DNA of 64,000 nt, from positions 39,563,665-39,627,664 of the forward strand of contig NC_065570.1 of NCBI RefSeq assembly GCF_937616625.2. Direction: 5' to 3'. Each line of letters begins with the position of its first letter. The stretch's first letter is position 1. Shown one piece after another: positions 3,297 to 55,597 of the stretch. A program made the translations under genes and the position numbers. Under the pieces are notes generated by a model, which saw only the letters and a program-made list of their open reading frames with translations, did not search any database and had not been told where the DNA came from. Source of the DNA: Mercurialis annua. Taxonomy: Eukaryota > Streptophyta > Magnoliopsida > Malpighiales > Euphorbiaceae.

Positions 3297-3532
3297 TAGC
3301 GACGCTACACCGCTTAAACCGACGCTACACTGTGTGAAGCGATGCTTCAAAGTTGAAGCGACGCTACGCAGTGTGAAGCTACGCTACAAAGGGTGAAGCG
3401 AAGCTACACTGTGTGAAGCGACGCTACACTGTGTGAAGCGACGCTACAAAGGGTGAAGCGACGTTACACAGTGTGAAGCGACGCTACAAAGGGTGAAGCG
3501 ACGCTACACAGCGTTAAGTGACGCTACATGCA
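3297..3532 (+). repeat. Tandem 20-bp repeat in B LTR (GAAGCGACGCTACA type)
   Basis: About eleven units of the form GAAGCGACGCTACACTGTGT, with variants AAAGGG and CAGTGT in the spacer. Each contains near-palindromic GAAGCG..CGCTAC words. The 3' LTR copy is at about 10342-10590. Confidence 0.9.
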
Positions 3533-4118
3533 TTGGCACGACTTGCCAAGCCTGTTTTATCTCGGGTACGACGTGCCGAGACCCGACACGACATACCCTG
3601 ACCCGATATCAACCCCGGATTCCGAAAAATACGAGAAGAAAAGAAACAAATATTGACAAAAGTTATGATTAAAGAAATGATCGATTTGTTTATAGAACCT
3701 AGAGTATATCTCTAAAGTTTGTACTTGGACGTCGAACGCATATTAATGACATACTCTTATAATAGATCCGACAAGCTACCAGAACGACGAGATTGCATAT
3801 TTCAATATCGATTGATCAACGTGTATTGTCTTTAAGTCTTCGTATAGTCAAGCTACGAGATCGAACGACGCATGGAACCTACGTGATTGGATGACGATAA
3901 TGCAATTTTGGATAGCGGTCACTGTGAGTGGAAAATTTACTTTTGCGTATTATTATGAAAGTTATTTTCTTATATCATGAATACTATTATTAAATACCTC
4001 GTATCTATATTATTTGCTCGTATAAAATGTTTTGTTTAATAGATTTGATTATATGAATTCTTTTGTATTCGTTGCTTTGAATATTAGTGTCTAATGTGCG
4101 GTCCTAAGAGACCAACTA

Positions 4119-4137
4119 CCTATTGGGTGTCAATAGG
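4119..4137 (+). other. Conserved LTR hairpin CCTATTG-GGTGT-CAATAGG (B, 5' LTR)
   Basis: A perfect 7-bp stem with a 5-nt loop. Equivalent hairpins are at 11185-11203 (B 3' LTR), 32993-33011 (D), 45919-45937 and 53147-53165 (F, minus strand) and 60203-60221 (G, minus strand). Confidence 0.75.
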
Positions 4138-4224
4138 CTGTATGATCATTAATGAGTCAATCTAGAATACCTGACTTTGTGATTAGAATTTAATATATAT
4201 TTATGCATAATATGATATGAATTC

Positions 4225-4400
4225 GATACGAGTGAGCACTCGGCTACGGTGTAGTCTAGAGTCCCCGTATCTAGTGGGCTGGGCCCACCAGTGGGTTGGA
4301 CCCACCAGTGAGTTGGACTCACACTTTATGATTTCGATACGAGTGAGCACTCGGCTACTATGTAGTCTGGAAGTCTCCGTATCTAGTGAGTTGGACTCAC
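4225..4400 (+). repeat. Hairpin array with covarying stems (B, 5' LTR)
   Basis: Two larger folds are closed by GATACG/CGTATC (4225-4230 with 4266-4271; 4336-4341 with 4378-4383). Each encloses GAGTG-AG-CACTC and GGCTAC-NNN-GTAGTC. Between and after them sit GTGGGC-TGG-GCCCAC (4274-4288), GTGGGT-TGG-ACCCAC (4291-4305) and GTGAGT-TGG-ACTCAC (4308-4322 and 4386-4400). Stems differ but remain paired and the TGG loop is constant. The 3' LTR repeats this at about 11290-11467. Confidence 0.85.
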
Positions 4401-4880
4401 ACTTTTGAAATTAATAATGTTTGCTTATATCATAAATTTATATATGTATTAAGCGTGTGACGCTATATTTTGATAATACTATAAGTAACTTGCAAACTCA
4501 CTCAGTATTTTCCCAAATATTGACCCCTCACTCTGATGTTTGCGGGTATTAGAAGTCGGATCAGACAAGTCATCTCCAATGTGCCAGAAGTCTTTGGACT
4601 TGCACAAGCATGAGTTCTTAGAGCTGCAGTAGTCAGTAGATGTCGATATTAGATAGACATTTTGACTTCAAATAATATTTTATATTGTAAATTCTAATAA
4701 TGATATTTTAATATCTATAAATGCATTATCTAAAAGAGTTTTTCTGAAAATGTTTTATATATAATATTATACTTTTAAATGCGAAAAATTATTAGTCGTT
4801 TTAGGCTTGCTACGGGTTTCGGAGCTACCACTCCCATTCCCTAGCGCCGGTCTCGGCTCATAATTTGGGTCGTGAAATTG

Positions 4881-9495: not shown

Positions 9496-11863
9496 TGTAA
9501 TGCCCCAAAATATTTAAGTATTTAATTGGACCACGTGTCCAGTGTTAAGTCGCCAGAGTGGCGATATCAGAAAGATTTCCGGGAAATTAAGATAAATATT
9601 AAATTTTAACAGGACAGATTCGAAAGGATTATTGCGAGAGATTCAACATTATATTTCAGTTCTAAAGTTGGAATTGGAATTAGATTTGAAAAATGTTAAG
9701 AAAGTCGCAAAATAAAGTACATGGAATAAAATGGTAATTTAGCCATATAAATTTCGAAGTGAAAATTATTTCGCCAAGGTCCGTGAAATGTTTTATAGTA
9801 TTTGTGGTAAAAGTTTCGGGTCAATCGGAGACCTTTTAAAATTTAGACGCGGATGCGTTTGGGCTAAATTGCAACTTTTGAAAAGTTCAAGGACCTAATG
9901 TAAATTAGCCAATAAGATAAAGAAATGAGGGATCAAAATGACCTTTTTGCCAAAATATATATAAGGATCAGAAAGTGAAAAGAAGGATCGAGAGAAAGAA
10001 AATGGAACAGATGAATGAAAACGACGATCATCGTCGATCCGCCGCGGTTTTTGCCGTTTCTCGTCCGAATCGAGTGATTCTCGCGCCGTTAGATCAAGAA
10101 TTCGATTCTCTATCAACTACAAGCATCAAACTGAGGTAATATTGCTCTTTTGATTTCTGAAATTTGAAGATATTGGGCTGTTCGTTTTTGAATGAATCGA
10201 TTTAGTCGAAATCACGTCGGTTTTGACAGTTTAAGGTAGAAAATTGATGAATTATGGTGTATAACGCTATGGGTATGTAAATAAAGCTTAGAAGCATGTA
10301 AGAAACATGTCGGATTGTCAAAAACGACGAAGTTAGGGTTTGTAGCGACGCTACACCGCTTAAACCGACGCTACACTGTGTGAAGCGATGCTTCAAAGTT
10401 GAAGCGACGCTATGCAGTGTGAAGCTACGCTACAAAGGGTGAAGCGAAGCTACACTGTGTGAAGCGACGCTACACTGTGTGAAGCGACGCTACACTGTGT
10501 GAAGCGACGCTACACAGTGTGAAGCGACGCTACAAAGGGTGAAGCGACGCTACAAAGGCTGAAGCGACGCTACACAGCCTTAAGTGACGCTACATGCATT
10601 GGCACGACTTGCCAAGCCTATTTTAGCTCGGGTACGACGTGATGAGACCCGACACGACGTACCCTGACCCGATATCAACCCCGGATTCCAAAAAATACGA
10701 GAAGAAAAGAAACAAATATTGACAAAAGTTATGATTCAAGAAATGATTGATTTGTTTATAGAACCTAGAGTATATCTCTAGAGTTTGTACTTGGATGTCG
10801 AACGCATATAAATGACATACTCTTATAATAGATCCGACAAGCTACCAGACCGACGAGATTGCATATTTCAATATCGATTGATCAACGTGTATTGTCTTTA
10901 AGTCTTCGTATAGTCAAGCTACGAGATCGAACGACGCATGGAACATACGTGATTGGATGACGATAATGCAATTTTGGATAGCGGTCACCGTGAGTGGCAA
11001 ATTTACTTTTGTGTATTATTATAAAAGTTATTTTCTTATATCATGAATACTATTATTAAATACCTCGTATCTATATGATTTGCTCGTATAAAATGTTTTG
11101 TTTGATAGATTTGATTATATGAATTCTGTTGTATTCGTTGCTTTGAATATGAGTGTCGAATGTGCGATCCGAAGAGACCAACTACCTATTGGGTGTCAAT
11201 AGGCTGCATGATCATTAATGAGTCAATCTAGAATACCTGACTTTGTGATTAGAATTTAATATATATTTATGCATGATATGATATGAATTTGATACGAGTG
11301 AGCACTCGGCTACGGTGTAGTTTGGAGTCCCCGTATCTAGTGGGCTGGGCCCACCAGTGGGTTGGACCCACCAGTGAGTTGGACTCACACTTTATGATTT
11401 CGATACGAGTGAGCACTTGGCTACGGTGTAGTCTGGAAGTCCCCGTATCTAGTGAGTTGGACTCACACTTTTGAAATTAATAATGTTTGCTTATATCATA
11501 AATTTATATATGTATTAAGCGTGTGACGCTATATTTTAATAATACTATAAGTAACTTGCAAACTCACTCAGTATTTTCCCAAATACTGACCCCTCACTCT
11601 GATGTTTGCAGGTATTAGAAGTCGGATCAGAAAAGTCATCTCCATTGTGCCAGAAGTCTTTGGACTTGCACAAACATGAGTTCTTAGAGCTGTAGTAGTC
11701 AGTAGGTGTCGATATTAGATAGACATTTTGACTTCAAATAATATTTTATATTGTAAATTCTAATAATGATATTTTAATATCTATAAATGCATTATCTTTA
11801 AATGCAATATCTACCACTCCCATTCCCTAGCGCCGGTCTCGGCTCATTATTTGGGTCGTGACA
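9496..11863 (+). repeat. Element B 3' LTR (2368 bp)
   Basis: Collinear with the 5' LTR, with two deletions. A donor-like TGAG/GTAATA is at 10136. The tandem repeat is at 10342-10590, the hairpin at 11185-11203, the hairpin array at 11290-11467 and the acceptor-like TTTGCAG ends at 11611. It ends GGGTCGTGACA. Confidence 0.9.
10136..11611 (+). other. Candidate LTR intron, element B
   Basis: The donor context is CTGAG/GTAATA. The acceptor context is CTGACCCC, then CTGATGTTTGCAG/GT, with a hairpin CAGTATTT-TCCC-AAATACTG at 11569-11588 just upstream of CTGAC. The same order occurs in C, D, E, F and G. Splicing is inferred, not shown. Confidence 0.45.
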
Positions 11864-22017: not shown

Positions 22018-22129
22018 TTTAATTGTAATATCCCATAGGCGAGTAATGTCAGAATTTTGGAAATGACGTCAATTTTGATATGTGTGTTCGGGTTTAGTTT
22101 CTAAGTTAATTTGTAAGATTTTTCAGGTC

Positions 22130-22255
22130 ATAGACGATTGTCCAAGAAAGTAGATGGTCGTTTGTTCAAAAGACAATTCAGTCTTTTGGACGACCTAGGA
22201 AACGATCGTCTAAAGGCATAGACGATCATCCAAATCATAGACGATTGTCTAGATG
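22130..22255 (+). repeat. Palindrome array ATAGACGATYGTCTA upstream of TATA (D)
   Basis: About five words around AGACGATCGTC or its half-sites (TAGACGATTGTC, AACGATCGTCTA, TAGACGATCATC), ending just before the TATA box. Confidence 0.75.
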
Positions 22256-22263
22256 AATCTGCC

Positions 22264-22270
22264 TATAAAA
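22264..22270 (+). promoter_or_regulatory. TATA box of D LTR
   Basis: TATAAAA in the context CTGCCTATAAAAGGAAAC, the best TATA match in the window. Confidence 0.7.
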
Positions 22271-22950
22271 GGAAACATGTGCGAGAAGAATTCATTTTTT
22301 ACCTAATTTTCTCTCATTAAGAAAAACTTTTAGATCATCATCTAAACTTAGAATCAAGCTTTACATGTGAGTTTCCAATTGATTTCTCATAAGTTTCTTG
22401 GGATCAAAGTGTAACACGTACCCACATTTGAATATCATATAGTTATGCTCATGCATTTCATTCATTTTTATGATTAAGAGTAAGTGACATTCATTAGCAT
22501 TTACGGAAGCATTACACGTATGATTGATATTCATTTACATAGGAAATATGGAAGTTTGATTAATGCTATAACTACTCAATTGATTAAGAGTTAGTATAGC
22601 GACAAACAAATATATTCAAACTAAATTGGAATGAAAGTATGTCGGTTAATTAGGGTTATTTGGTTATTATGAAAACAAATAAATTAGAAGGTTTAAGTTA
22701 TACTTAAAGGATATTTCAAGGACTATATGAGAAATTTTTAATGGTAAATGATTCCATAAAAGCATTCCTATTTTAGTTAGATGGAATCTTAGCTAAAGGT
22801 TAAATAACAACTCTTAAATATTTCTTCTTGATATATCAAAGAGAGAAAAGGAGAGAAGAGTAAGAAATTCATTAAAACCTAACCCTAGCTTCACCCATAA
22901 CATCAAGTACACCTTAAATTAAAGTTTTGATCAAGAAAAGGAGATATTTG

Positions 22951-24473
22951 GTAAGTAATTTAGAGTTTTGGTTGATTAAATTAGAGTTCATCATCTTTTT
23001 GAAAGCAATATGCACATATCCGAAAATTTTATCTCTGTTGTTTATATCATAAACCGAGTTATACAACTCCAAATTGATTGATTCTTGATTCTATGGAAAC
23101 TATAGATAGTCTACTACAATTGTTATTCGTTGTGTTTCATCATTTGAAATAGTTATAATAGCCGAATAGTCCATAACATTTTGTTGCTCTGTCTGCCTAT
23201 ACAGCCTGATTGGGTGTCACCAAAACATATATATCTCATTGTTTAGAGATCTAATTGAGTTTGTTCTTTTTGTTATATTTTTTAGACTCATATAACTATA
23301 ACTTTACCGAAGGGTTTTTCAAATTGTGTTTATATTGATGTGTGGATCAATTGCAAGATAGGGTATATATTCTGCCTACTTTGTAGAACTATGGCTGCAA
23401 CATTAGCTACTTGTGAAATTGATAAAAATGAGTTATACATGTCCAAATGATGCCATTCTTGTTTATGTGGATTCATTAGGATGTTAACTAAAACTTTTTA
23501 GTTTTGACAAAAGACTAATTCTGTCATTTAGATATTGAATATGGAAGAAACATTTAATTGTATAATCTGTCTAGACAGTCTAGCCTAGGGGTGTTTTAAT
23601 GTGCATAATCTGATTTATACTAATCCAATTGATGTGCTTCCAATTGGAAATGAAACTAGACTCAAATTTACAGCACTCATATCAATAGTTTACAAATGAT
23701 GTTTGAGTTAGGAGTAATACCTATTTGAAATCATTACCCATAATCTGTCTAGAAAAAGGGGTTATGGTTACTAGTTTATTTCTTTATTTAAATTGAGGAA
23801 ATAGTTATACCTTGTGAATGAATTGAGATTATATATATATGAATAGGTACTCATAGACCAGAAGGGAATACGACAGACAAGCCTGGAACTTCACGGGTTT
23901 GAGACTCGGTGAATTGAGTAAGTGAATAGATAGTGTTATACTTGGTATATACGTTTGTTTGCAATTGCAAATGTGTATTGATTTGAGACGTAAATGCGCT
24001 TGTGAATTATGGTTGAATTGTTTGCACGAGTCATGTTTTGGTTTTGAGAATCATGTCATGCTTATGTTTAGATATTCAATGAGAATTGAGATAGTCGTTT
24101 GGTTGCCTAAAATGGCGATTCGGGCCAACGACGTGAGATTGAGTTATTGGTTGCCTAAAGGGCGATTTGGGCCAATAACGTATGTTGGTTGCCTATATGG
24201 CGATTTGGGCCAACATGAGAATTATGAGCATGATTGAATATCCTTTTGTAAGCTTGATGTTGATTGCAAATGTGAGAATATGTTTGCTTTGAATTGAACA
24301 TTGGAGTACTACTTTTGTTATGGTTATTGTTTATGTTGAATGGATCAATGCTTGAGTTATATATTAGTTACTTGAAATGCTTATAAATGTGCATATTTAG
24401 TATGCATATATCTACTTGCTTATTGAGTTGCAGACTCACCCCTCTGCGTTATTTGTTTTTCAGGATACAAAGA
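22951..24473 (+). other. Candidate LTR intron, element C
   Basis: GTAAGTAATT is close to the plant donor consensus. The acceptor is CTGCGTTATTTGTTTTTCAG. In the 3' LTR the acceptor has become CAC (about 31062) and the hairpin array is deleted. Confidence 0.5.
24094..24216 (+). repeat. Hairpin array with covarying stems (C 5' LTR)
   Basis: Three units share the core TTGCCTAAANGGCGATTTGGG. Outer stems differ yet pair: GTCGTTTGG with CCAACGAC (24094-24102/24125-24132, one bulge), GTTATTGG with CCAATAAC (24143-24150/24172-24179), and ATGTTGG with CCAACAT (24182-24188/24210-24216). Confidence 0.9.
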
Positions 24474-24769
24474 GTTGCATTGAGTCGACATTTGCATCTG
24501 ATAGAGGTTTTAGGTGGGCCAATGGAGAGTTCATTGCACGTTTATATTTTGAAGTGTTTATGTGTATAAGATAGATAACAAAACTTTTGTACTGAGAGTT
24601 TTTGTATAAAGTTATGTATTAGTGTTTGATGTAAGATAGTTTGAATGTTACGGTTATGCGATAAGTTAAAATTTTTGTGTCGAAAAATAACATATATTAA
24701 ATGGATATTGTGATGTTAGCTATAAATGTTTGACTATATAATGTTTTAATTTGAGGGTGTTATATTAAG

Positions 24770-24781
24770 TGGTATCAGAGC
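24770..24781 (+). promoter_or_regulatory. Element C primer-binding site
   Basis: TGGTATCAGAGC is a perfect 12-base complement to the initiator tRNA-Met 3' end, five bases after the 5' LTR. Confidence 0.95.
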
Positions 24782-27800: not shown

Positions 27801-29658
27801 AAATATGGAGACATTACTTATATGGTGAGACGTTTCAAATTTTCTCAGAACAAAAGCTTGAAATATATTCCTACACAGAAAGAGTTGAATTTAAGGCAAA
27901 GAAGATGGATTGAGTTACTGAAAGATTATGATTGTACTATTGATTACCATCCTGGAAAAGCCAATGTTGTTGCAGATGCTTTGAGTCGAAAGGTTGTGGA
28001 TCATATGGCAGGTATGCCTTCTTATGATGTTGACTACTTAATTGCACTTAGAAGTATGAATACTTTATTGGACACACATGATGATATCTTATTAGTCACC
28101 TTGCAAGTGATGCCTTCTATTGAAGATAAAATTAAAGAAACTCAATTTGAAGATCCTTATTTACAGAAGATGGGAAGAAAGGTTGAAAAGGAAAACATGA
28201 TCAATTTGTTCTGAGAGATGATGGTCTTTTGTTAAATGGCAACCGTGTTTGTGTTCCAAATGTGGAAAACTTGAGGGAGGATATATTAAAAGAAGCTCAT
28301 AATGCACCCTATAGTATGCACCTGGAAGTACTAAAATGTACAGAAATATGAAGCCTTTTTATTGGTGGCCAACAATGAAGAAAGATGTGTCAGAATTTGT
28401 GGCTAAATGCTTAACATGTCAACAAGTGAAAGCAGAACATCAGGCACCTGCAGGTAAACTTCATTCTTTAGCTATACCAGAGTGGAAATGGGAGAAAATA
28501 ACTATGGATTTTGTTGTAAGGTTGCCACGTACATTCATAAAGCGTGATTCTATTTGGGTTATTGTTGATAGACTCACTAAATCTGCTCATTTCTTACCTG
28601 TTCAACAAACTGATTCCCTTGATAAATTGGCTACATTGTATGTTTCTGAGATTGTTAGATTGCATGGTGTGCCTATTTCAATTGTGTCTGATAGAGATCC
28701 ACGGTTTACTTCACACTTTTGGGGTAGTTTACAAAATGCCATGGGTACTAAGTTGCATTTCAGTACAGCATTTCATCCGCAGACAGATGGGCAATCAGAG
28801 AGAACCATTCAAACTTTGGAAGACATGATGAGAGCTTGTACATTAGAGTTCAAAGGGAAATGGGATGATCATTTACCCTTGATGGAATTTGCCTACAATA
28901 ATAGTTTTCATTCTAGTATAGGTATGGCTCCATATGAAGCACTGTATGGAAGAAAGTGTCAAAGTCCAGTGTGTTGGGATATTGAAGGAATGCAGCAACT
29001 TGAAGATCCTGAAATAGTTCAAGAAACTGTGGATAAGATACAAACAGTCAAACAGTGTTTGAAAGCATCACAAGATCGGAAAAAGAGTTACACTGATAGA
29101 CATCGTAGGGAAATGGAATATGAAGTGGGTGAGAAAGTATTCTTGAAAGTATCTCCATGGAAAGGAATTTTAAGATTTGGCAAGCAGGGAAAGCTTAGTC
29201 CAAGATATATTGGACCGTATGAAATCATTGAGAGAATTGGACCATTGGCTTATCGACTAGCATTACCGGGAGAGTTATCACAAATTCATGACGTGTTTCG
29301 TGTTTCCATGTTACGAAGATATATATCTGATCCTAGTCATGTAATACAATAATCAGAGGTAGAACTCACAGAGAAATTTGTATACACAGAGGAACCTATA
29401 GAAATACTGGGAACAGAGATAAAGAAATTAATGAATAAAGAGATACCGATGGTTAAAGTAAGATGGAGTCGTCATTCTCCAAAGGAAGCTACATGGGAGG
29501 TGGAAGAACACATGAGAATGAAATATCCTTTTCTTTTTCATGATGGTTGTAAGTTCTTCAATTTCGAGACAAAATTTTCTAAGGTGGGGAGAGTTGTAAC
29601 ACCCACATTTGAATATCATATAGTTATGCTCATGCATTTCATTCATTTTTATGATTAA
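24887..29658 (+). pseudogene. gag-pol: Element C gag-pol polyprotein with chromodomain (frameshifted)
   Basis: Start ATG 24887 (MDEHGDDPIGPEMS). Gag capsid (FEKVALDWWETV, later YMPPVYRDKKKIEF) is followed by a glycine/arginine-rich linker and CCHC knuckle [14 protein letters not shown], preceded by [12 protein letters not shown]. Protease has [14 protein letters not shown] has [12 protein letters not shown] and an intact catalytic [13 protein letters not shown]. RNase H has [17 protein letters not shown]. Integrase has KCLTCQQVK, DSIWVIVDR, SIVSDRDPRF and GQSERTIQTLEDM. The chromodomain is VKVRWSRHSPKEATWEVEEH. Breaks: stops at about 25085, 25318, 27056 and 29350, and single-base frame changes near 25195, 25680, 27495, 27575, 27860, 28185 and 28320. 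Integrase to near the end is open for 338 codons. Confidence 0.93.
29581..29594 (+). promoter_or_regulatory. Element C polypurine tract
   Basis: AAGGTGGGGAGAGT lies immediately before the 3' LTR start TGTAACACCC. Confidence 0.85.
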
Positions 29659-31363
29659 GAGTAAGTGACATTCATTAGCATTTACGGAAGCATTACACGT
29701 ATGATTGATATTCATTTACATAGGAAATATGGAAGTTTGATTAATGCTATAACTACTCAATTGATTAAGAGTTAGTATAGCGACAAACAAATATATTCAA
29801 ACTAAATTGGAATGAAAGTATGTCGGTTAATTAGGGTTATTTGGTTATTATGAAAACAAATAAACTAGAAGGTTTAAGTTATACTTAAAGGATATTTTAA
29901 GGACTATATGAGAAATTTTTAATGGTAAATGATTCCATAAAAGCATTCCTATTTTAGTTAGATGGAATCTTAGCTAAAGGTTAAATAACAACTCTTAAAT
30001 ATTTCTTCTTGATATATCAAAGAGAGAAAAGGAGAGAAGAGTAAGAAATTCATTAAAACCTAACCCTAGCTTCACCCATAACATCAAGTACACCTTAAAT
30101 TAAAGTTTTGATCAAGAAAAGGAGATATTTGGTAAGTAATTTAGAGTTTTGGTTGATTAAATTAGAGTTCATCATCTTTTTGAAAGCAATATGCACATAT
30201 CCGAAAATTTTATCTCTGTTGTTTATATCATAAACCGAGTTATACAACTCCAAATTGATTGATTCTTGATTCTATGGAAACTATAGATAGTCTACTACAA
30301 TTGTTATTCGTTGTGTTTCATCATTTGAAATAGTTATAATAGCCGAATAGTCCATAACATTTTGTTGCTCTGTCTGCCTATACAGCCTGATTGGGTGTCA
30401 CCAAAACATATATATCTCATTGTTTAGAGATCTAATTGAGTTTGTTCTTTTTGTTATATTTTTTAGACTCATATAACTATAACTTTACCGAAGGGTTTTT
30501 CAAATTGTGTTTATATTGATGTGTGGATCAATTGCAAGATAGGGTATATATTCTGCCTACTTTGTAGAACTATGGCTGCAACATTAGCTACTTGTGAAAT
30601 TGATAAAAATGAGTTATACATGTCCAAATGATGCCATTCTTGTTTCTGTGGATTCATTAGGATGTTAACTAAAACTCTTTAGTTTTGACAAAAGACTAAT
30701 TCTGTCATTTGGATATTGAATAAGGAAGAAACATTGAATTGTATAATCTGTCTAGACAGTCTAACCTAGGGGTGTTGTAATGTGCATAATCTGATTTATA
30801 CTAATCCAATTGATGTGCTTCCAATTGGAAATGAAACTAGACTCAAATTTACAGCACTCATATCAATAGTTTACAAATGATGTTTGAGTTAGGAGTAATA
30901 CCTATTTGAAATCATTACCCATAATTGTTTATGTTGAATGGATCAATGCTTGAGTTATATATTAGTTACTTGAAATGCTTATAAATGTGCATATTTAGTA
31001 TGCATATATCTATTTGCTTATTCAGTTGCAGACTCACCCCTCTGCGTAATTTTTTTTTTCACGATACAACGAGTTGCATTGAGTCGACATTTGCATCTGA
31101 TAGAGGTTTCAGGTGGGCCAATGGAGAGTTCATTGCACGTGCATATTTTGAAGTGTTTATGTGTATAAGATAGATAACAAAACTTTTGTACTGAGAGTTT
31201 TTGTATAAAGTTATGTAATATTGTTTGATGTGAGATAGTTTGAATGTTACAGTTATACGATAAGTTAAAACTTTTATGTCGAAAAATAACATATATTAAA
31301 TGGATATTGTGATGTTTGTTATAAATGTTTGAGTATATAATGTTTAAATTTGAGGGTGTTATA
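29595..31363 (+). repeat. Element C 3' LTR (1769 bp, deleted)
   Basis: Almost identical to the first ~1 kb of the 5' LTR. It then diverges more, with an internal deletion removing the hairpin array. It ends GGGTGTTATA. Confidence 0.92.
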
Positions 31364-31430
31364 TAAAGGCTGATTTTTGAGAGAAATCTTCAATGAGAAA
31401 TTCTGAGATCTTGGGTTTCAAAGCTTCAGG

Positions 31431-33473
31431 GTAAGATGGTTTAATCCCTTTGATTTTTCTTGGTTATTATTGAATTTTGATGGTGAAAATTGTGTGAAAT
31501 TGGATTTTTGATTTCTCTTGAGATTTAGATCCAAAATTAGGGATTTTTAATTTTGGTGGTTGTTTCAACATGCATGTACGGATTTAAAGGTGATTCCATG
31601 ATCTAAGTATGATTTGATGATTGATTTGAGAAGATTATGGTTAATTGATGATTAATTTTGATAATTTTGTGTTAAGTTGAAAGATTGAATTTTTGATGAA
31701 AAGAGTGGTTGCATGTCATGGATTTTGATGTTTAATTATGATTATTAGTTGATGGGTAGGCTAAGATTATGAGAATGATGGATTGGTGCGATTTTCAATC
31801 AATATGGATGAGATTCTCAAAATTGATGTTTAAGGACGAAATGGTAAGTTCTGCAAAATTTGAGGGCTAATCGGTCAATTGGCAAATTTACAGAGTTTTG
31901 ATAATAATAATAATAATAATAAATTGATTTAAAAATTAATTTTAGAATCTTTGATGATTTTTGTGATTTTGAATCAAAAAGTTCGTTTAAAGACTAAAGT
32001 GGTCAATTTTAAAAAGATTAAGTACTTTTTGGTATTTTTGTCGAAAAATATATTTTTTCCACTTAGAGGGCTGTTTTTGACCAATATGATGAAAAATAAA
32101 TTGATTTAAAATAAAGTATCGGTTTATGCTTTGTAATGAAAAATTATGATTTTAAAATCGTTTGAATCGAAGAACCGGGCGTTAAGAAAATGCTTAAGCC
32201 GGCGGGTTACTATGATTTCGGAAACGAGAACGTAACTGTTGGACATGGAATATTATATGTATTCGGTCAATGAGTTGACACGTCAATATTAAAATATTTT
32301 ATCGAGAAAGTTTTATCGGAGCTAAGCATGTTAATCGAATTTTAAAGAATCGATTGAATTGACTATAAATTGTTTGATAGGATTACATGACTGATTGACG
32401 TAGGTTTTAGAGTTTATCTAGATTTAAGATGGTTATCGAAGGAAGCGGAAGGAGAACCGCGCTGCTAAACGGGTGTCTAGTTTTTCTTTTTTTATTTTGA
32501 GCAAGTTGTGAGTAGTACTTTAGTTCTTAATATAGATAATTACATATAAAATCACCACCTTTACACGAAATTCCAAAAATAGCACGACCTTTAAAACGCA
32601 TCAATTCAAGGCATCACCTTTCATTTCTTTTCAAAACCAACATAGGCACATTTTTAGATAAAATTTTGCTGACTTGGACACCCGATAGGAGTGCCACGTA
32701 TCATGCCACGTCAGCAATAACGCCACTAAAAGTTTGCTGATGTTATTTTTGAAAAGAAACAAAAGGTGGTGTCCTAAATTGACACGTTTTAAAGGTCGTG
32801 TTATTTTTGAAATTTCGTGTAAATGTGGTGATTTTATATATAATTAACCCTTCTAAATATTATTGAAATGCATTTATTTTATCGTAAATCATTTAATAAA
32901 AGCATATCATCGAAATTAATTTAATCTGGTATAGTTCTGACAAAACGTGCTTGCCTAATTTAATCTGGTATAGTTCCGACGAAACGTGATTACCTATTGA
33001 GCGGCAGTAGGAGTGTGTGTACATTATTATTATTATCGTATCATGAACATAATCAAGGAAAATAGAATGGAAATGTAAGGTAAGACGATAGTAACAGTAT
33101 GAACCCGATCAATGATGTTAGTATTGAATACACAGTCATGTGATGACAATGGTTAATATGCTGACGATCTTGACAATTGACAACGGTTTGAATATGAACC
33201 TGGTCAATGACGACGAAGGTTGAAATACCCGGTCATGTGGCAAAAGTGGCTATACCGGTCAAACAAAGGATTGCAAAGATTTTGATTATCCTATAGTATG
33301 TGATCGAGTGTTGATCGATGAAAGGTTTGTATATTTAGGATTAAGGTTTCGTTCGGTTTCTGTGCTCGGTATGCATACACATTAAAGTTTATAGCACTTT
33401 TTTATGTTTTCAGTAATGTTTATTACTAATTATAATATCTCACTCAGCATAGTCTGACCATATTGACTTCTAG
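31431..33473 (+). other. Candidate LTR intron, element D
   Basis: Donor TTCAGG/GTAAGA; acceptor CTCACTC, CTGACCATATTGACTTCTAG. It contains MITE copy 2. The acceptor is weaker than in the other families. Confidence 0.35.
32533..32850. mobile_element. MITE copy 2
   Basis: Same inverted-repeat element as 18218-18534, inside solo LTR D. Flanks TTCTTAATA (32524-32532) and TTCTAAATA (32851-32859) match at 8 of 9 positions, consistent with a 9-bp Mutator-type duplication. Confidence 0.85.
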
Positions 33474-33721
33474 AAGTTCTGCAATAGTAGCTAGAAGTCT
33501 TTCGCTTAGATTGTTTAATGTTATATACAGTTTGGGATATTTGTATATCGAACGAATGTATCTTTAATACGTTTTTATTAAAGTAAATTTGGTATCTTAA
33601 TTATGAAAAATTATTTTATAAGATAAAAGTTGATATCGATTAAGGCTTGCTACGGGTTCCAGAGCAACCACTCCCGTTCCCTAATGTCGGCCTCGACTCA
33701 AGAAATCGGGCCATGACATTA

Positions 33722-43204: not shown

Positions 43205-45684
43205 TATGTTGGATTTTATGTTTCTGTGTTTTTACGATTTTTATGTGCGTTGTGTTTTTTTTTATGCTTGGTATAATTGTGTTAAAATCGAGGATGATTT
43301 TGTTTTATGTTGGGGAGAATGTAACACCCCGTTTTTTTCCAGCTTGTTCGGATGAGCTTTCCGATGTGTTTTGGGTTGATCTTGGTGGTTTGGTTCTTTG
43401 AAACCTTAGTTTGGTGTGCATAACCATTGTATTGATGTTAGCTCTTGTTTTTGACTTGATTTCAGATTGGTCCAGTTTGGTTTTTGCATTGTGACACCTT
43501 AATTGAGCCTTGTCTTGTATCTTGTATGTTTCACATGTGTCGTGCGGGTATTCGATGTTGATTTGATTCGTTTTCGGTTAATTATAGTAGATGTGTTTGT
43601 GCACTTTTACAATCTGTCATGCTTTAGTACAACGTCCATATCTTCCAATTTCACCGTCGGATCAGGCCGCCGTTCGGATATATTGTTCCTAAGGGGATTT
43701 GCTAAAATATGGTCGGTTAAGATTGGTTTTGAATGTCGCGGGAGCGACCTACATATTGCGGGCGCGATTCGGGCCTTCCTAGGTTTTGCAAAGTCTATAA
43801 ATAGACCCCCTAACTCGACCTAGTCCGCCTCTTTTCGACTTGTAAATCCTAAAAACGATTTGATACACTGAAAACTCTATAATACTTCATTCTAACTAGT
43901 CCGGGTGTGATTCCATTCGATTAGAACGTGATTTTATATTCGATTCGCGAGATCTATGCAATTTCTACGTTCGTGTTCTTCGCGAGTGCTTGGTTATTCG
44001 AATTGGTTATGGTCCATACCTATTTTCTCCGGGTCTTTGCACTTCTTATCATCTAAATTATATTATTAGGTAATCTCTACGCTATCATTGATTGTTGGTA
44101 TCAACTTTGGCGTTCTTGATGCGTATGAATCACTTTTTAGGGTTTTTAATGCTTTGATTGTTGCTATTGATTGTTGATTGTTTAGCTAGTGATCTATATG
44201 ATTAAGACAATGATTTTAATATGTATAATCTGATCTTAATTGATTTGAAAACGAAATTGGGTAACTAAACAACAATTTGGCGAATTCTAGATTTATACAA
44301 AATTGATTCTTTTAGCGATTGACTCAAATGATTGAATCTGAATAATTTAAGTTGTTATGAGTTTATATATCTATAGCTACTTATTTAAAGAGTCTTTTCT
44401 TTAAAAGGAAACTTTAAATTGAATTGACTTTGAAATCTGTACGATTTGCGAAATTGACGAATTTAAGGAAATTGAGTGCAACGATTGCAAAATTGTTTTC
44501 AAATGCTATACCTACTGATCTTATATATTCTATTTGATATTTTAATGTGTTTAGATCAGTAGTAACATACTTTGGTTCGGCGATTGTTGGTTTTGGATCG
44601 TTGGCTAGTTAGGCAAATTTCGGCAAAATTGCCAAATTTGATTATTTAAGTGTTTTGGCTTAATTTTGGATTTGATCTTAAATTTTTCAATTGTTATATG
44701 AGATATACCTGCTAAGTTGTTTGCATTGGGTGATGTTTAAGTTGTGCGTTTCGGTTAACTGCCGCAACGAACTAGTTTTGCATTTAAGTGAGTTCTTAAG
44801 CTAAATTTGAGTTCCCTTATTTCTAAAATGGTATATTTGGTTTACTAAAGTATTTCCGGATATAAATGAATTGTTTTACTTTGGTTGGATGTTTTAGGTC
44901 GGGTTAGACATGTGTCGCCCTACATGTGAGGTCGAACTTGATAATTATGGTATCTTGCTGACTCATTACTTTGGGATTGTAAACATTGGTTTACATTATA
45001 TTTAAGTTATTAAAATGATTTCCGGATAACGTTTTAAAGATGGAAACTCAATTAGGTTTGCTATTCTAATGACTTTGGTTATGCTATGATTAATTGTTAG
45101 TCTACTGTCACGACCCAATCTCTGGTGCCGAGACCGGCGCTGGGGAATGGGAGTGGTTGCTCCGAAACCTGTAGCAAGCCTAAAAACGTAAATAATTTTT
45201 TGCGAATATAAACGTCATGAATGACATACATAAACATGTGTCATGCTGAAAACACATGTCAGGCATACATATCCTCTGGCAATCTCAAACATCAAAACGC
45301 AGTAAGCGTAAAACATATATACTTTAAAACATAAAGTTATATTTACAGAAAACTATATATTATAGGCTGACTTGCAAAACACTTATCTTCTGCAGCTCTA
45401 GGAGTAAAGTATTGTTTCTTTACATACTTTCAAAAATACAGACTTCTGGAAGTAGGATAGAAGTCCGTTACTTCAAAGCGTCTTAACCTGAAAGAAAGTC
45501 TGTGAGGGGTCAGTATATTGGGATATACTGAGTGAGTTTGCATAGTTACTAATAAACATTTAAAACATAAAATCGATAATGTAAACGATTCGATCAAATA
45601 CAGCCGAGTAACTGATCCAGATGAAACCCTACTCTCCAATTATCTGTCGATATACGATAATACTCAAATTGATCGATCCAATAG

Positions 45685-45800
45685 GTAGGGTCCCGAGATA
45701 ATTCAACCGAGTTCAACCTCTACCGTCTCTTTATCCCATGTTGTGGGTCCCGAGATAGTTCAACCGAGTTAAACCCACTGGATACATGTCCCGAGATAGT
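45685..45800 (-). repeat. Hairpin array with covarying stems (F 3' LTR)
   Basis: Three units share the core CCCGAGATARTTCAACCGAG (plus-strand view). Outer stems: GTAGGGT with ACCTCTAC (one bulge), GTGGGT with ACCCAC (45743-45748/45773-45778), and a weaker ATAC/GTAT. The 5' LTR copy (52951-53050) has lost one unit. Confidence 0.8.
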
Positions 45801-46487
45801 TAAACCGAGTTAAACCTCGTATACAATTTAATATTTATTCCAACTTCGATATGCTATGATATTCGATAATATGGGCCCTTTTCATAACTTCTCAAATCGC
45901 AACTGGTGATCACACAGTCCTATTACTTCCCAATAGTAAGGCACGTTTCATCGGATTTATACTGGTTCCAAACTTAAGTATGAATGCAATTTTATATAAA
46001 CACTCACGATATAAGCAAATGCGATGTAAATAAATGATATAAGCATTTACGATATAAAAACGATATATTTTTTAAATACTTCAAAAGTAAACAAACAAAC
46101 TCACTGAAAACGCTTATCCAAAAATACGTCGGGGCTTAAAAACGTCAAGCTTCCCGAGCTCCTGGTCCAGCTGCTTCTTGCCTCGCCGGATCTAAAACGA
46201 TTTAAAACAATTGACTCATATCAGAATCTCTATTCTAAGATTGACTCTAGACTCGAGACTCGACACACTGAACCCTCATTAATCGTCGTGTTTCTCACGC
46301 ATATCCCGATAAACGGTATCTAACTCGTTTACGGATCGAATTCCACTTTTAACTCAATTCTCGTTTAACCTCATTAGGTTAACGCTTCTAATTAATCAAT
46401 AAATAATCGAATACTAATCGACTTCAAGTCTCGATGTGCGCGTATGAAATTTTCTCGAAAAAATAGGTCGATTGGCGAAAACAATGT

Positions 46488-46606
46488 GCGTACGCGCGTC
46501 TGCCTGTGCGATTGCACAGGGGACTGTGCATCCGCACGGTGTGACTGTGCGTTCGCACAATCTGGCTGTGTGTTCACACAGTTTGGCTGTTCGACGCACA
46601 GCCACG
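46488..46606 (-). repeat. Palindrome array CTGTGCG-N-CGCACAG (F 3' LTR)
   Basis: About six CTGTGCGNNCGCACA-type words; the 5' LTR copy is at 53712-53843. It lies inside the candidate intron, near its donor end. Confidence 0.85.
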
Positions 46607-47288
46607 AGTTTTTGGCCCGGGGTCGATTCCCGACGAGCTTCTAGGCGTAAAAACGCCCTAAACGCATCCAAAACGCTATTTCTAACTTCAAAACATTCAA
46701 ATTCAATCCTATAATCAATTAAACGATAAAATTGTTTCGTGGCCTAAAACTTTGAATTGATATAACTCAAAATATATCCGTTTAAACGAGAAAACATCAA
46801 GCTTACCGTGATACGCCACTGAAATACGATCGTTTTGAGTTATAGAACGTCGGAAACGGACGAGAAACGGAAACCGCGCGACGAACCGTAATCGATCGCC
46901 GTTTATGAACGAAGAATGAAAGAAATAACTGATGAAGGTCTGGATCCTTCATCTGTAAGGATTTTATATATATAATCTGGCTAATTTGCACTTTGGTCCT
47001 TGAAACTTTTCAAAAGTTTCAATTTAATCCAAAACATATCCGCGTCCAAATTTTAAACGGTCTCCGATTGACTCGAAACTTTTATCACTAATACTATATA
47101 TTATTTCGCGGACTTTGGCGAAATAATTACCGTTACGGGTTTTATAATTTATTTTATATTAATTTCCAAAGTTAAATTTATTTTCTAAACTCCCGATATA
47201 ATTAAATTAAATTCTCCTAAATTTAATTTATCGAAAATCTCGACACGTGGCACGATGTAATTACCTTAAAATATTTTGGGGTATTACA

Positions 47289-47305
47289 TTCACCCCCTCT
47301 TAAAA
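47289..47305 (-). promoter_or_regulatory. Element F polypurine tract
   Basis: Minus strand ATTTTAAGAGGGGGTGA directly precedes the 3' LTR. Confidence 0.85.
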
Positions 47306-47329
47306 TAAATTCGTCCTCGAATTTAAAAT

Positions 47330-50300
47330 TTAGCCACGTACCTTGAGTAAATAGATATGGGTATCTTCTTCTGTCTCCCACATGCACTCTTCTACGGACT
47401 GACTTCTCCAAATAACTTTCACCATCAGAATTCTCTTCGTCCGCAATTACCGTATCTGCGTATCAACAATTTTCACTGGCCGTTCTTCATATGTTAGTTC
47501 TTCGCTTACGTCTACCACTTGCGGTTGAATTATTCGAGAGGGGTCCGGTACATATTTCCGAAGCATGGAAATATGAAAGACAGGATGAACTTGCGACATT
47601 TCCGGTGGCAAGTCTAGCTTATAGGCAACTGAGCCTATGCGTTCTACGATCTGGTATGGTCCGACATATCTCAGAGCCAACTTGCCCTTTTTTCCGAAAC
47701 GAATCACTCCTTTCATCGGTGATACTTTAACGAAAACGTAATCTCCGATCTGAAATTCGATGTCTTTCCTTTTGGGGTCTGCGTAGCTCTTCTGTCGACT
47801 GGAAGCAGTATTCAGACGTTGCTTTATCAACGGTACTTTTTCTGACGTAATCTGGACGATCTCTGCTCCAGTGAGCTTCCGTTCACCGACTTCATCACAA
47901 CAGATTGGGGATCGACATTTGCGACCGTACAGTGCTTCGTATGGAGCCATCTCAATGCTTGAATGATAACTGTTGTTGTAGGCGAACTCGACTAAAGGTA
48001 GGTACGTATCCCAACTACCTCCAAAGTCTAGTACGCATAGTCGAAGCATGTCTTCTAACGTTTGAATCGTCCGTTCAGACTGGCCGTCCGTCTGAGGATG
48101 AAACGCAGTGCTGAAATTCAATCGCGTTCCTAGTACGTCTTGTAAGCTTTTCCAAAAATGAGAGGTAAATATGGAACCTCTGTCTGAGATAATTGACACG
48201 GGAACTCCGTGTAGGCTCACAATCTTATCGATGTAAATCTCCGCCAACTTTGCTGCAGAATAAGTCGTCTTTGTAGGAATGAAGTGCGCTGACTTCGTCA
48301 AGCGATCCACGATTACCCAAATGGAGTCAAAACCTTTCTGCTTCTTAGGTAGTCCGGCTACGAAATCCATCGTGATTTGCTCCCATTTCGACTCCGGAAT
48401 GGGTAACGGCTGAAGAAATCTGTAAGGTCGCTGATGTTCCAACTTGACTTGCTGACAAGTCGGACATTTAGCCACGAATTCTGCGATGTCCTTCTTCATT
48501 CCCCTCCACCAATACGTTGTCTTGATGTCGTGGTACATCTTCGTGGAACCAGGATGAACACTATACATCGTTCAATGAGTCTTTTCCATGATCTTCTGTC
48601 TCAAGTCTTCCACATCTGGAACGCACATTTGATTACTATATTTCAGTATTTTGTTGACAATACTGAAATCTTGACTCTTTCCTTGTTGTACTTCTTCAAT
48701 TAAATGCTTTAATTGAGGATCATATGCTTGCAACTCTTTGATTCGATCTATCAACGTCGATCGTATCGTTAGTTGAGCCATTAGGTTTCCGAGTGATGAA
48801 ATCTCGAACTCCACTCCTTGAGTGAACATCGTGTGAATTTTGTTGATTAATGGTCTCCGCCATGCCGTTATAATATGCGCGAGACTCCCTGCCGACTTTC
48901 TACTTAACGCATCCGCCACAACGTTGGCCTTGCCCGGATGATATTGTATCGTGCAGTCATAATCTTTTAATAACTCCATCCACCTTCGCTGTCTGAGGTT
49001 CAACTCTCGCTGATCGAAAATGTACTTTAAGCTTTTATGATCTGTAAAGATCTCGCACGTGGCGCCATATAAATAATGTCTCCAGATCTTTAGCGCGAAA
49101 ATCACCGCCGCTAGTTCTAGATCATGTGTCGGGTAGTTCGTCTCGTGCTTCTTAAGTTGTCATGAAGCGTACGCGATTACTCGACCATGTTGCATTAGGA
49201 CGCATCCTAATCCAACTCTTAATGCATCACAATATACTGTGAATCCTTCCGTTCCCTCTGGCAACGCTAAGAGTGGTGCCATTGTCAGACACTCTTTCAG
49301 TTTCAGAAAACTGAGTTCGCACTGGTCCGTCCAGTTGAATTTCGTATTCTTCTGAGTTAACTTCGTCAAAGGAACAACGATCTTTGAAAAGTCATGTACA
49401 AATCGTCTATAATATCCCGCTAAGCCGAGGAAACTCCGAACTTTAGTAACTGATTCAGGCCGCTTCCATTCTATCACAGCTTCGATCTTCTTTGGATCAA
49501 CGTTAAGACCGTTTTGTGATACCACATGACCTAAGAAAGCCACTTCCGTTAGCCAAAATTCACATTTCGAGAATTTGGCGTAAAGCTGATGCTCTCTTAG
49601 CGTCTGTAGTACTATCCGCAGATGATATGCGTGCTCTTCTTCTGTACGCGAATAGATCAAAATGTCGTCGATGAACACGATCACGAACTGATCCAAGTAC
49701 GGTTAGAATATCCTATTCATCAAATCCATAAAGGCTGCTAGCGCATTCGTCAGTCTGAATGACATAACGAGGAACTCGTAATGACCGTATGGAGTTCGAA
49801 AAGCAGTGTTCTGAATATCATTGTCGCGAATCTTCAATTGATGATAGCCTCATCTCAGGTCGATCTTGGAAAAGTACTTCGCTCCTTGTAACTGATCGAA
49901 CAAATCGTCGATTCTTGGCAACAGATACTTGTTCTTGATTGTCACCTTATTCAGCTGTCGATAATCGATACATAGTTGAAGCGATCCATCCTTCTTTTTC
50001 ATGAATAACACTGGTGCACCCCACGGGGATACACTCGGTCTGATGAAACCACGATCAAATAACTCTTCTAGTTGATCCTTAAGTTCCTTGAGCTCTGCTG
50101 GCGCCATTCGATAAGGAGGTATCGATATCGGTTTCGTGCCATGAGCCAATTCGATACAAAACTCAATCTCGCGATCTGGGGGTAATCCAGGTAATTCCTC
50201 TGGAAAAACGTCTGGATACTCAGATACAACTGGTACATCACTTAAATTTACACTTTTCTTCTCCACGTCTCGTACTATTGCTATGAATCCTTGACATCCC

Positions 50301-52105
50301 TTCTTTAACATACGATCAGCTTTAAGAGCTGAAATAATACTCGTAGGAGATTCTGTTTTATCGCCCTGGATTGAGACTGGGTGAATCTCAGGTGTGTTAA
50401 ACGTTACCGTCTTCTTCCGACAATCCACATTGGCGTAGTGCTGAGCTAGCCAATCCATTCCTAGTATGACGTTAAAAGCTAATACCTCAAGCAAGATCAA
50501 GTCGACCAATAAATCTCTTCCTTGAATTTTGACATGATAAGATGGATAAACAATACTAACTTCCACACTTTCACCTACTGGGGTGGCTACGGATAAGGAG
50601 TTCTTAAGATAAGCCGGTTGTACCCCTAACTTACTAGCGAAACTAGGCGAGACAAAAGAATTCGTAGCGCCCAGATCAAACAAAATTAGTGCGTCTTGAG
50701 AGGCGATAGAAAAGGTACCTTGTACCACAGCATTGGAAGCCTGAGCCTCCTGAGGATTCAGTGCAAAGACCCTGGCCTGACTCCCACCGGCCTGCGAAGT
50801 CTGACCAGTACCGTGACCTCCACCGTTCATTCCTCCTCGATTTCCATAACCACGGCCTCTCTGGCCAGTGAAGGTACTTCCTGTCTGATCATATCCTGAC
50901 GCTGCCTGATGTGTAGTTCTCTGCTGCTGATAGGAAGGTTGTGCTACTGTAGTCATGGAGCCTTGAGGCATCTGCCTCAGACAATCTCTAGCAAAGTGGC
51001 CCTGTTGACCACAGTTGAAACATGCTCCACTAGCAATGTGGCACACGCCGTAATGCCTCCTATTACATGTCAAACAAATAGGAGCTTCGCCTCCTAAACC
51101 ACTAGTAAACCTAGCACCAAATCCTGTGCTAGTAGTTCCAGATCAAGATCCATGTCGAGCTTTCTTACGTTCTCGCTAACATTATATCGACCTTGAGTAA
51201 CTACCAACATATGACTGTGTTGGAGCGCTCTGCACGCTGCGAAACGTATCACTCCGTATAGGTACAACGTTAGAAGGATCAGGAATTCTCCCAAGCCGGA
51301 TCAAAGAAACCTCCATCTGCCTGGCGCTATCGATCAGTTGCACTAAAGGTTTACTTATATCAGATGTCAAACTCACAAACTCGGCTCCTAAACCTTCTAC
51401 AAACCTCGAGTTCACTCTGACTGGATCTGCCGTCAAATCGAGTGCAAATCGACTCACTCTAGTGAACTCAGTCACAAACTCCTGCATGGACCGATTGCCT
51501 CTACTCAGGGTCAGCCACTGATTACGATAACTCTCCGTCACCGCATACGGTAAGAAAAATTCTCTGTAGCGATTCACAAATTCAACCTAAGTCATAGTGT
51601 CCATGGTTGGCTGAATGTGCTGCTGAAACCAATCCTTCGCGGGTCCTTTCATTGACATTTCCACCATGATGATGGTATGTCTCTCATTAGCTTGCAGATG
51701 GCGAGCGTTACGTTCTACTTCTTCGAGGAAATCTAGAGCATCACCTGAGCCGTCAAACTTAGTTGGCTTGAGGCGCATATAAGCCAAGACGATGTCTTGA
51801 TCAGTAAAAGCAACATTGCGTAGCTGTTGCTGCTGTAGTTGTTCACGATGCATATTCTGCACATCAGCCTGATTGGCTTGCATAGTTGCAATTCCCGTAA
51901 GAAACTGATTCAGATCAAAACCCACAACATTAGGTTGTTGGGCTTGCGCCTGCACTCCAGGTGCCTGCGCCTGGGCCTCTTGGCCACCACCACCTCCGTG
52001 AATAGAAGACTCATCTTGAGCTTCTGGATGGACGTCATGCGCCCCTTCTATAACATTTCGTGCTGCAGCGGCAGTTCGCTCTTTTTCTTGTCGTTGGTCA
52101 GACAT
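47330..52105 (-). pseudogene. gag-pol: Element F gag-pol-chromodomain polyprotein (nonsense mutations only)
   Basis: The ATG at 52105 gives MSDQRQEKERTAAAARN; the frame runs to TAA at 47330-47332, about 1591 codons with no frame change. Order: gag capsid (KPTKFDGSGDALDFLEE; RYREFFLPYAVTESYRNQ), CCHC knuckle [14 protein letters not shown], protease ([12 protein letters not shown], where DSGA/DTGA is usual), RT ([12 protein letters not shown]; catalytic [13 protein letters not shown]), RNase H, integrase (KCPTCQQVK; DSIWVIVDR; SIISDRGSIF; GQSERTIQTLEDM) and chromodomain (VKVIWRSQSVEECMWETEED). Stops interrupt at about 51587, 51179, 51173, 51128, 49847, 49679, 49157, 48569 and 47447. Non-functional as written, but the best-preserved copy here. 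Confidence 0.95.
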
Positions 52106-52348
52106 CCTGACCAAGACAAATAGCGTTACTTAGCCACATAATCGCATATTATCGCAAACGCATATCGTATTAAACACGCATCGCATCACGAACGCACACG
52201 TAAGACAGACTCACATCCTAGAGGGAAAGCTGAAAGTTTGAAAATCAAATGAACACGTAACAAAGACAGGATTTGAATCCTATGTGCTGCAGTAGATTCC
52301 TAGGGAAATCAATCACTCTTCTGACATCAGCAATAGTAACTGGACCAT

Positions 52349-52360
52349 GCTTTGATATCA
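52349..52360 (-). promoter_or_regulatory. Element F primer-binding site
   Basis: Minus strand TGATATCAAAGC then ATGGTCC; two transitions from the standard TGGTATCAGAGC, four bases after the 5' LTR. Confidence 0.9.
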
Positions 52361-52364
52361 ACAT

Positions 52365-54558: not shown

Positions 54559-55597
54559 TCTACTTTAGTTGTGGTTGATTTATTGGTTTGTACTACTCCT
54601 ACATGGTGTCTAGTATTCTTAGAGTTAGGGGTTGAATTGATTTTAACTTATGCTTTATTTTTTAGACCGGTCTACTGCTCGTGCTTCGGAGTCGAACCAG
54701 GTTTAGTTGATTTCCTGGTTATCACGTGGACTCGCAAGCAGTGAGTTTGTAGTGCTATTTACCGTTTTATTAAGTAAATTATTTATTTTATTCAATAAAG
54801 GTTTTCGAACTGGTTTTTGAATCACTATGGATCTGGATTGGAACGAGCTACTCGATGGGCATCATCAAGACTGTGTGCACCGGTTACATATATATCGGCG
54901 GATTATTATTATCTGGCATACTTTGGTTTCGACGGAGTTATCTCAGGCCTACTTTTGGATTCGACGGGGAATTGTTCCCGTTTATTTTGGGTTATACTTT
55001 GGGTTTCATTTCAATACTGTTTCTATAATGTTATATATATTAGTATGAAAGGATTTAAGGTGTTAAGGTGTTAAAGGTTTTCACTTAATAAATTTAAATA
55101 GTATTATGAACTCATCTTAGTATATCTGACTCTGTTGTTTTTCCCATTTCCAGGTTTATGATTTTGGAGCATGTTGGTGAGCTCCACCTTTGTTGCTTTT
55201 CCTTGGAGGTTTACATTTTTGTTTTAAATAAAGATGTCGAACTTATTTAAAACTCTTAGACCGTAGTAGTACTGATATGTCTTTATCGTTTATTAATTGT
55301 TGTTGTCAGATCGGCTTGACTGTTGTTATGCACGCTGGTATGTATTTCTTTGGATAATGGAATTATAGATATAAGCATGTTATTGGAGTCTCGGATTTAT
55401 GTCAAGCATTTTGTTTATATATTGTTATATAAACTGCTAAACTTAGGTTGGAGTTTCAGTTGCCCCTGAGCGTTGATATCTTTGCAGGTTTTGTATGTCT
55501 GTATGTTTATCTGCGAGGCTAACAACGGGTTTCGATACTACCAATACCTATGCCCTAGCGCCGTACACAATTATTGAAATTGGGTCGTGACATCTCT

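Follow-up and report, generated by a model that had tools for sequence, protein, structure and literature searches.

Why would the long terminal repeat (LTR) of a plant retrotransposon carry, side by side, several hairpins that keep nearly the same core while their closing stems differ in step? The question is raised by the window, a 64,000-nt stretch of the Mercurialis annua genome, in which the 5' LTR of element C holds three such units on the plus strand. T1 (24094..24132) pairs GTCGTT(T)GG with CCAACGAC around the 22-nt core TTGCCTAAAATGGCGATTCGGG, T2 (24143..24179) pairs GTTATTGG with CCAATAAC around TTGCCTAAAGGGCGATTTGGG, and T3 (24182..24216) pairs ATGTTGG with CCAACAT around TTGCCTATATGGCGATTTGGG, with one further T.G pair outside. 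An earlier note had described a constant core within three different paired stems; our analysis confirms three units with different complementary stems around a near-fixed core and corrects the description of the core, which is nearly constant at 21-22 nt and differs among T1, T2 and T3. The extra T in the 5' arm of T1 is a bulge absent from all the others of the 61 loci examined. Stems at this spacing are rare by chance: among 9514 positions taken from four of the window's LTRs, at least 7 pairs occur at 0.095% and at least 8 at 0.011%. When arms are swapped among the units under strict scoring, own partners give 22 pairs and the next best arrangement 17 (best of 6 arrangements), while under looser scoring the matched arrangement is not uniquely the best, with 3/6 or 2/6 arrangements reaching it in two scorings. 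The arms of all three units share TTGG/CCAA, and an initial test on long arms gave no information on C. On the plus strand, 30, 3 and 5 of 500 dinucleotide shuffles fold as stably as T1, T2 and T3, respectively, and 5 of 500 fold as stably as the whole array.

The LTR that carries the array spans 22410..24767 on the plus strand, as delimited by the match between the two LTRs and by the flanks. Its 3' counterpart (29594..31365, plus strand) has lost the array in a 583-bp deletion, and the LTR-LTR match joins 22420-24769 to 29601-31368. Element C is decayed; its Pfam matches follow the gag-PR-RT-IN order, with a zinc knuckle, SH3_Tf2-1 and an H2C2 integrase, and element D shows the same domain order in part, both encoding zinc knuckles. 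Matches to the chromodomain PF00385 (E 8.9e-05 in C, 2.1e-04 in D) both fall below the curated cut-off of 25.1 bits. We take C to be a Tekay-like Ty3/gypsy element, a clade name given by resemblance, and the primer binding site TGGTATCAGAGC (24770..24781, plus strand), recognised from its sequence, presumably matches initiator tRNA-Met. C is nested inside an LTR of element F (22030-22409 and 31366-33719) and is flanked by CAAAG and TAAAG, read as imperfect target repeats. The identity of its two LTRs is uneven, at 99.3% over the first 1.3 kb (22420-23744) and 95.1% over the last 0.45 kb (24326-24769), which may reflect conversion or a mosaic origin.

Searching the 451-Mb Mercurialis annua genome with a 25-nt pattern of the C core, we found 64 exact matches, and none with the reversed pattern. 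The 60 stretches fetched cover 63 of these 64 places, the last being the window itself, and they yield 226 C-type units in 61 loci, with 2 to 9 units per locus. Both arms fit T1, T2 or T3 in 37, 68 and 61 of the 226 units; the other 60 are fused or depart from these types by one change or more. The seven inner stem pairs are complete in 176 units, and 43 units form six of them. Covariation was counted on 128 rows representing 126 distinct units, where 93.6% of stem cells are paired against 85.7% in shuffles, and the covariation score is 0.264 against 0.129; none of 500 shuffles reaches either value, and slid partners pair in at most 51.3%. Across the C-type units, the near-constant core with paired, changing stems described in the earlier note holds up. 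Each of the four outermost stem pairs occurs as 3-5 standard pair types among the distinct units (G-C/A-U, C-G/U-A and U-A/A-U, and outermost G-C/U-G/A-U/U-A), and one inner pair is U.G in 118 of 126 units. Because the cells of the pair table count sequences, we read this variation as about six changes between the C types. By the two measures least sensitive to relatedness, the C-type units do not exceed the shuffles: 4 pairs are changed on both sides, a number reached by 500 of 500 shuffles, and there are 19 further pair types, reached by 441 of 500. Within single C types, none of 87 changed pairs is changed on both sides, 31 having become G.U and 56 broken; counted as distinct transition events, the pair is kept in 11 and broken in 14. 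This lack of compensation within types is expected of copies that no longer move. The inner helices of the units show no covariation, and an alternative inner helix, CCTAAA/TTTGGG, was likewise rejected for want of covariation.

The array also stands out in sequence conservation. Its bin is the most conserved 100 bases of the C LTRs (0.967), within a run of 100-base bins from 23810 to 24509 at 0.908-0.967, compared with 0.775-0.890 in the upstream bins. T2 cores were selected by the search pattern itself; T1 and T3, mostly unselected, still stand at 0.96. The spacer between T1 and T2 equals the T1 arms in conservation.

Does the same plan occur elsewhere? The earlier note had reported the same design in an element it called B, probably the minus-strand element D (45106-54559), with which we identify it here. 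One LTR of D carries an array of three units on the minus strand (45684..45825) with the core TTNAACTCGGTTNAANTATCTCGGGA; the other has two units, one with mismatched arms after the loss of a 41-bp unit. The D-type core has 596 exact matches in the Mercurialis annua genome, and 20 small stretches chosen among the matches listed, together with L202, supplied 52 units, which fall into four arm types by position. Even at a given position the loci have different arms, and these vary as matched pairs, as in GATAC/GTATC versus GACAC/GTGTC or GGTAG/CTACC versus GGTAC/GTACC. The D-type count comprises types I, III and IV, all in a common register (33 rows, 32 distinct); types were assigned by eye, four badly fitting units (L205, L217, L220 and one of L221) were kept, and type II units and units cut by stretch ends were excluded. 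Here 83.1% of stem cells are paired against 61.3% in shuffles, and covariation is 0.578 against 0.237, with 0 of 500 shuffles reaching either; slid partners pair in at most 40.9%, a control that is at a disadvantage because the structure was derived from the same sequences. Eight of ten pairs are changed on both sides (reached by 281 of 500 shuffles), and there are 22 further pair types (reached by 136 of 500). Matched arms score 6.24 against a mean of 4.67 for re-paired arms, and 13% of re-pairings reach the matched median. In swaps within single arrays, own arms are the best of 6 arrangements in D and the best of 24 in H, and when D and H are pooled the observed arm score is matched or exceeded in 6 of 20,000 permutations.

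A further LTR family, G, bears on how the two core types came to share a plan; it makes up 18 of the 61 loci with C-type units. In the 2.8-kb stretches compared, G resembles C chiefly in a ~480-bp module that surrounds the array (23923..24404 on the plus strand of the window, defined by similarity), at ~80-91% identity, the two LTR families being otherwise different. Fourteen of the 18 G loci carry one D-type unit (at most 4 mismatches) further on, whose arms pair poorly by eye. Since one LTR family holds both core types, module exchange would explain the sharing without convergence. Cassettes thus seem, as judged from the sequences, to move between LTRs, and the earlier view that convergence or very ancient retention is implied is not supported, as exchange would suffice.

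Could the matched stems be a product of copying, with no selection for pairing? Template switching by reverse transcriptase in quasi-palindromes would rewrite one arm from the other, and unequal recombination would multiply the units. Several features agree with such an origin, namely the free gain and loss of units, from 2 to 9 per locus, the fused units (in L144, L150 and the 5' LTR of D in the window) and the absence of compensation within types. However, copying of this kind should erase bulges, yet types I, III and IV of D keep a bulge at the same place amid changing bases, where unpaired column 13 (A, T or C) persists while its neighbours change. It should also erase wobbles, yet one inner C pair is most often U.G. 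Furthermore, the cores are nearly constant and no part of the C LTR is better conserved than the array bin. We therefore consider an origin by copying rather unlikely.

The age of insertions bears on the idea in the earlier note that unpaired arms should be missing from recently inserted elements. From 17 candidate partner stretches we obtained two partner LTRs, 97.6% and 97.0% identical to those scored, their positions being inferred from distance and not from target repeats. In both young pairs all three stems are complete in the scored LTR, and one partner LTR has one broken pair (n = 2). Among neighbouring pairs, identity is 94.9% for L161/L162 and 92.4% for L159/L160; L146/L147 (98.8%) and L177/L178 (94.2%), whose similarity extends past the LTR part, were excluded. 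The copy of C in the window has T1 with its bulge in one LTR, and its other LTR lacks the array. A broken T3 pair is common to L134, L135 and L137, whose stretches are 97-99% alike; if they are separate insertions, they may count against the recent-insertion idea. In L128 and L129, another LTR-like sequence is inserted within a T3 unit. These two, with their fused units, were considered as transposed elements with unpaired arms and rejected: they are 96.6% alike over the whole 2.8 kb, and we read them as a locus duplication because the match spans the flanks too.

If pairing is maintained, at which level does the constraint act? Of 113 distinct C-type units, 107 fold better as the plus strand (mean -11.9 versus -8.7 kcal/mol), an advantage due largely to the U.G pair found in 118 of 126 units. 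RNAalifold is weak on single types, where 132, 40 and 17 of 200 column shuffles reach T1, T2 and T3. On the whole array it gives -30.1 for the plus strand against -9.1, and -12.1 when shuffled, but the fold joins different units. In the D-type helix, internal pairs show a modest strand bias (G.U 14 versus A.C 5); with end pairs included the counts are 16 versus 15, and under free alignment 20 versus 29. The same palindromes could in principle be control elements in DNA, that is, transcription factor sites whose dyads reflect dimeric binding or cruciform extrusion. The near-constant core contains TGGGCC in T2 and T3, which we take to be of the site II type. Tandem repeats in retroviral U3 regions can act in transcription (PMC3601003). 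A site model, however, leaves arms that differ and yet pair unexplained, the arrays of A and D lie far downstream of a TATA-like box, and it is the plus strand that folds better. We regard control at the DNA level as unlikely and think that the constraint probably acts on RNA.

Pairs covary between types and between families, arrays occupy the same place in several LTR families, and the C LTR carries blocks that resemble splice sites on either side of its array. Upstream lies a putative 5' splice site, G/GTAAGTA (conserved GGTAAGTA, 22950..22957, plus strand), the sole GGTAA followed by G or T in the C 5' LTR. Among 300 local octamers it comes fourth in conservation within the C family; over the whole C LTR upstream of the array, 273 of 1670 octamers are at least as conserved. 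A GT-containing pattern matched 27 of the 43 C-family loci and the donor GT is kept in 26 of them, with conservation over the family of 1.00 for G and 0.90 for T. Downstream of the array, CTCACCCC is followed by a T-run and then by CAG/G at 24461, forming a putative branch point (CTCAC), polypyrimidine tract and CAG acceptor (24433..24463, plus strand) that is the best acceptor of the C 5' LTR under a splice matrix. The block is present in 39 of 43 C-family loci, with CAG/G kept in 31 of the 39, and is broken in the C 3' LTR of the window. The D LTR has an acceptor-like block of the same kind (CTGACCCC...TTTCTTTCAG/G, 45488..45513, minus strand). The branch-point-like CTGACCCC occurs in D, E and G, and CTAACCCC in H, each followed by CAG.

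The distance from the end of the array to the acceptor-like block is ~245 nt in C, ~195 in D, ~130 in A and ~210 in H, and these arrays start up to ~415 nt upstream of the block. The D-type units, in their design and position, thus bear out the claim that a second LTR family has the same plan built on its own core, again some hundreds of bases ahead of an acceptor-like block. Thirteen of the 18 G loci contain the block, with the final exact C-type core 497-720 nt away from it. When ten LTR copies are scored with the same splice matrix, C is the only element whose proposed donor comes first; for the proposed acceptor this holds in the 5' LTR of C, the 3' LTR of A and the 5' LTR of E. ATGs number 43 in the putative C intron, 0 in the guessed first exon and 16 in the rest of the leader.

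Because a donor-like site lies upstream and a branch-point/CAG-like block downstream, the arrays look intronic, and on balance we favour a position within an intron, as far as such sequence signals can indicate one. Were transcription to start near LTR position 450, the array would fall in a long R region shared by the two ends of the RNA and might serve in RNA 3'-end formation or translation control, with no splicing involved; the conserved donor and branch-point/acceptor blocks of C suit an intron better, and we hold this role in R to be quite improbable. The branch-point block also has a possible CAG..CTG hairpin of its own, at 45505-45540 (minus strand) in D, 4500-4535 in A and ~2620 in L130. 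The inner arms of this hairpin differ between families (CAGTATAT/ATATACTG, CAGTATTT/AAATACTG and CAGCT/AGCTG).

On this basis we infer the transcription start, splicing, binding partner and role of the C array. Its tandem RNA hairpin units would lie in an intron-like stretch of the LTR leader, between the donor at 22950 and the acceptor at 24463, with the near-constant core as the part that is recognised and an outer stem that would need only to pair. As splicing would remove this stretch, the units would mark unspliced, full-length RNA. Their most likely binding partner would be the Gag zinc-knuckle protein that the element itself encodes, or else an RNA-binding protein of the host, and this binding might hold the RNA back from splicing or carry it into particles. 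That the array is a cis-acting tag on unspliced RNA, serving Gag and packaging or retention, is a tentative proposal for which we claim less than an even chance. Rather doubtful is the wider suggestion that the units represent a seemingly undescribed class of RNA motif, with a fixed core of ~21-26 nt, an interchangeable stem and a tandem arrangement, which passes as a cassette from LTR to LTR and tags unspliced genome RNA; plant LTR retrotransposons might use such a class as a signal for packaging or retention.

Small ribozymes usually consist of a constant core plus free stems. The fixed core and free stems of the units resemble this plan, and the core could be catalytic RNA, for instance a self-cleaving ribozyme of the kind found in retrozymes. 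However, no Rfam family matches the window at the gathering threshold, the models of known ribozymes including the hammerhead being unmatched, and permissive scans of both arrays returned three snoRNA rows only, far below the cut-offs. Catalysis is thus very improbable. Retrozymes are plant LTRs with hammerhead ribozymes and an LTR of ~350 bp (PMC4918200). As described there, they are like the present arrays in placing structured RNA with a fixed core in plant LTRs that have little other sequence in common, and unlike them in showing tandem units, a protein-coding element, an LTR of 2.4 kb and no hammerhead match.

A tag on unspliced RNA would have counterparts in retroviruses. The packaging signals of HIV-1 and MLV sit behind the major splice donor, expose conserved bases and occur only in unspliced RNA. 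By analogy, the arrays may likewise be hairpins with exposed conserved bases present in unspliced RNA only; unlike those signals, they lie inside the LTR, are tandem and have one core with swappable stems. HIV-2 and SIV have leader introns with donor and acceptor both within R-U5, an arrangement that the putative C intron may resemble, although it spans ~1.5 kb and belongs to a plant element. The U3 tandem repeats of retroviruses and of Tnt1 (PMC3601003) are also tandem units in an LTR, but the present units have arms that vary together as matched pairs, and their array is close to the LTR 3' end.

Among viral contigs we found no relative by the core pattern, the C protease-RT, the acceptor block or RT alignment. 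A pattern with 17 fixed bases hit 117 stretches in genome contigs; the 80 listed, which carry bacterial or archaeal titles, were taken as chance. Keyword searches of the open-licence PMC library listed no title or abstract on such arrays or on an intron within a plant LTR, and the sole match there for an intron in an LTR was an engineered lentiviral vector.

Long plant LTRs are usually regarded as fast-changing filler, except for the promoter and the ends. In family C, conservation is highest in a set of hairpins that vary their stems in step, and other families repeat the plan around another core. If the array is truly an RNA tag for full-length transcripts, it becomes testable how plant retrotransposons keep and package unspliced RNA; caution is called for in that LTRs can combine modules of different origin.

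Other LTRs hold further short palindromic structures. Element A has short hairpins, GTGGG/CCCAC and GTGAG/CTCAC, around loops of the TTGGA type (4273..4410, plus strand). Further LTR arrays of short palindromic units lie at 3298-3528, 10344-10594, 46485-46601 and 53712-53842, with a 20-mer (AGCGACGCTACACAGTGTGA) and a 21-mer (TGTGCGTTCGCACAGTCTGGC) as repeat units. A block resembling CTATTGGGTGTCAATAG, a possible hairpin, occurs with small differences ahead of the arrays in A (4080-4150), D (45900-45950, minus strand) and H (1360-1390 of L202), and also in F (32980-33010).
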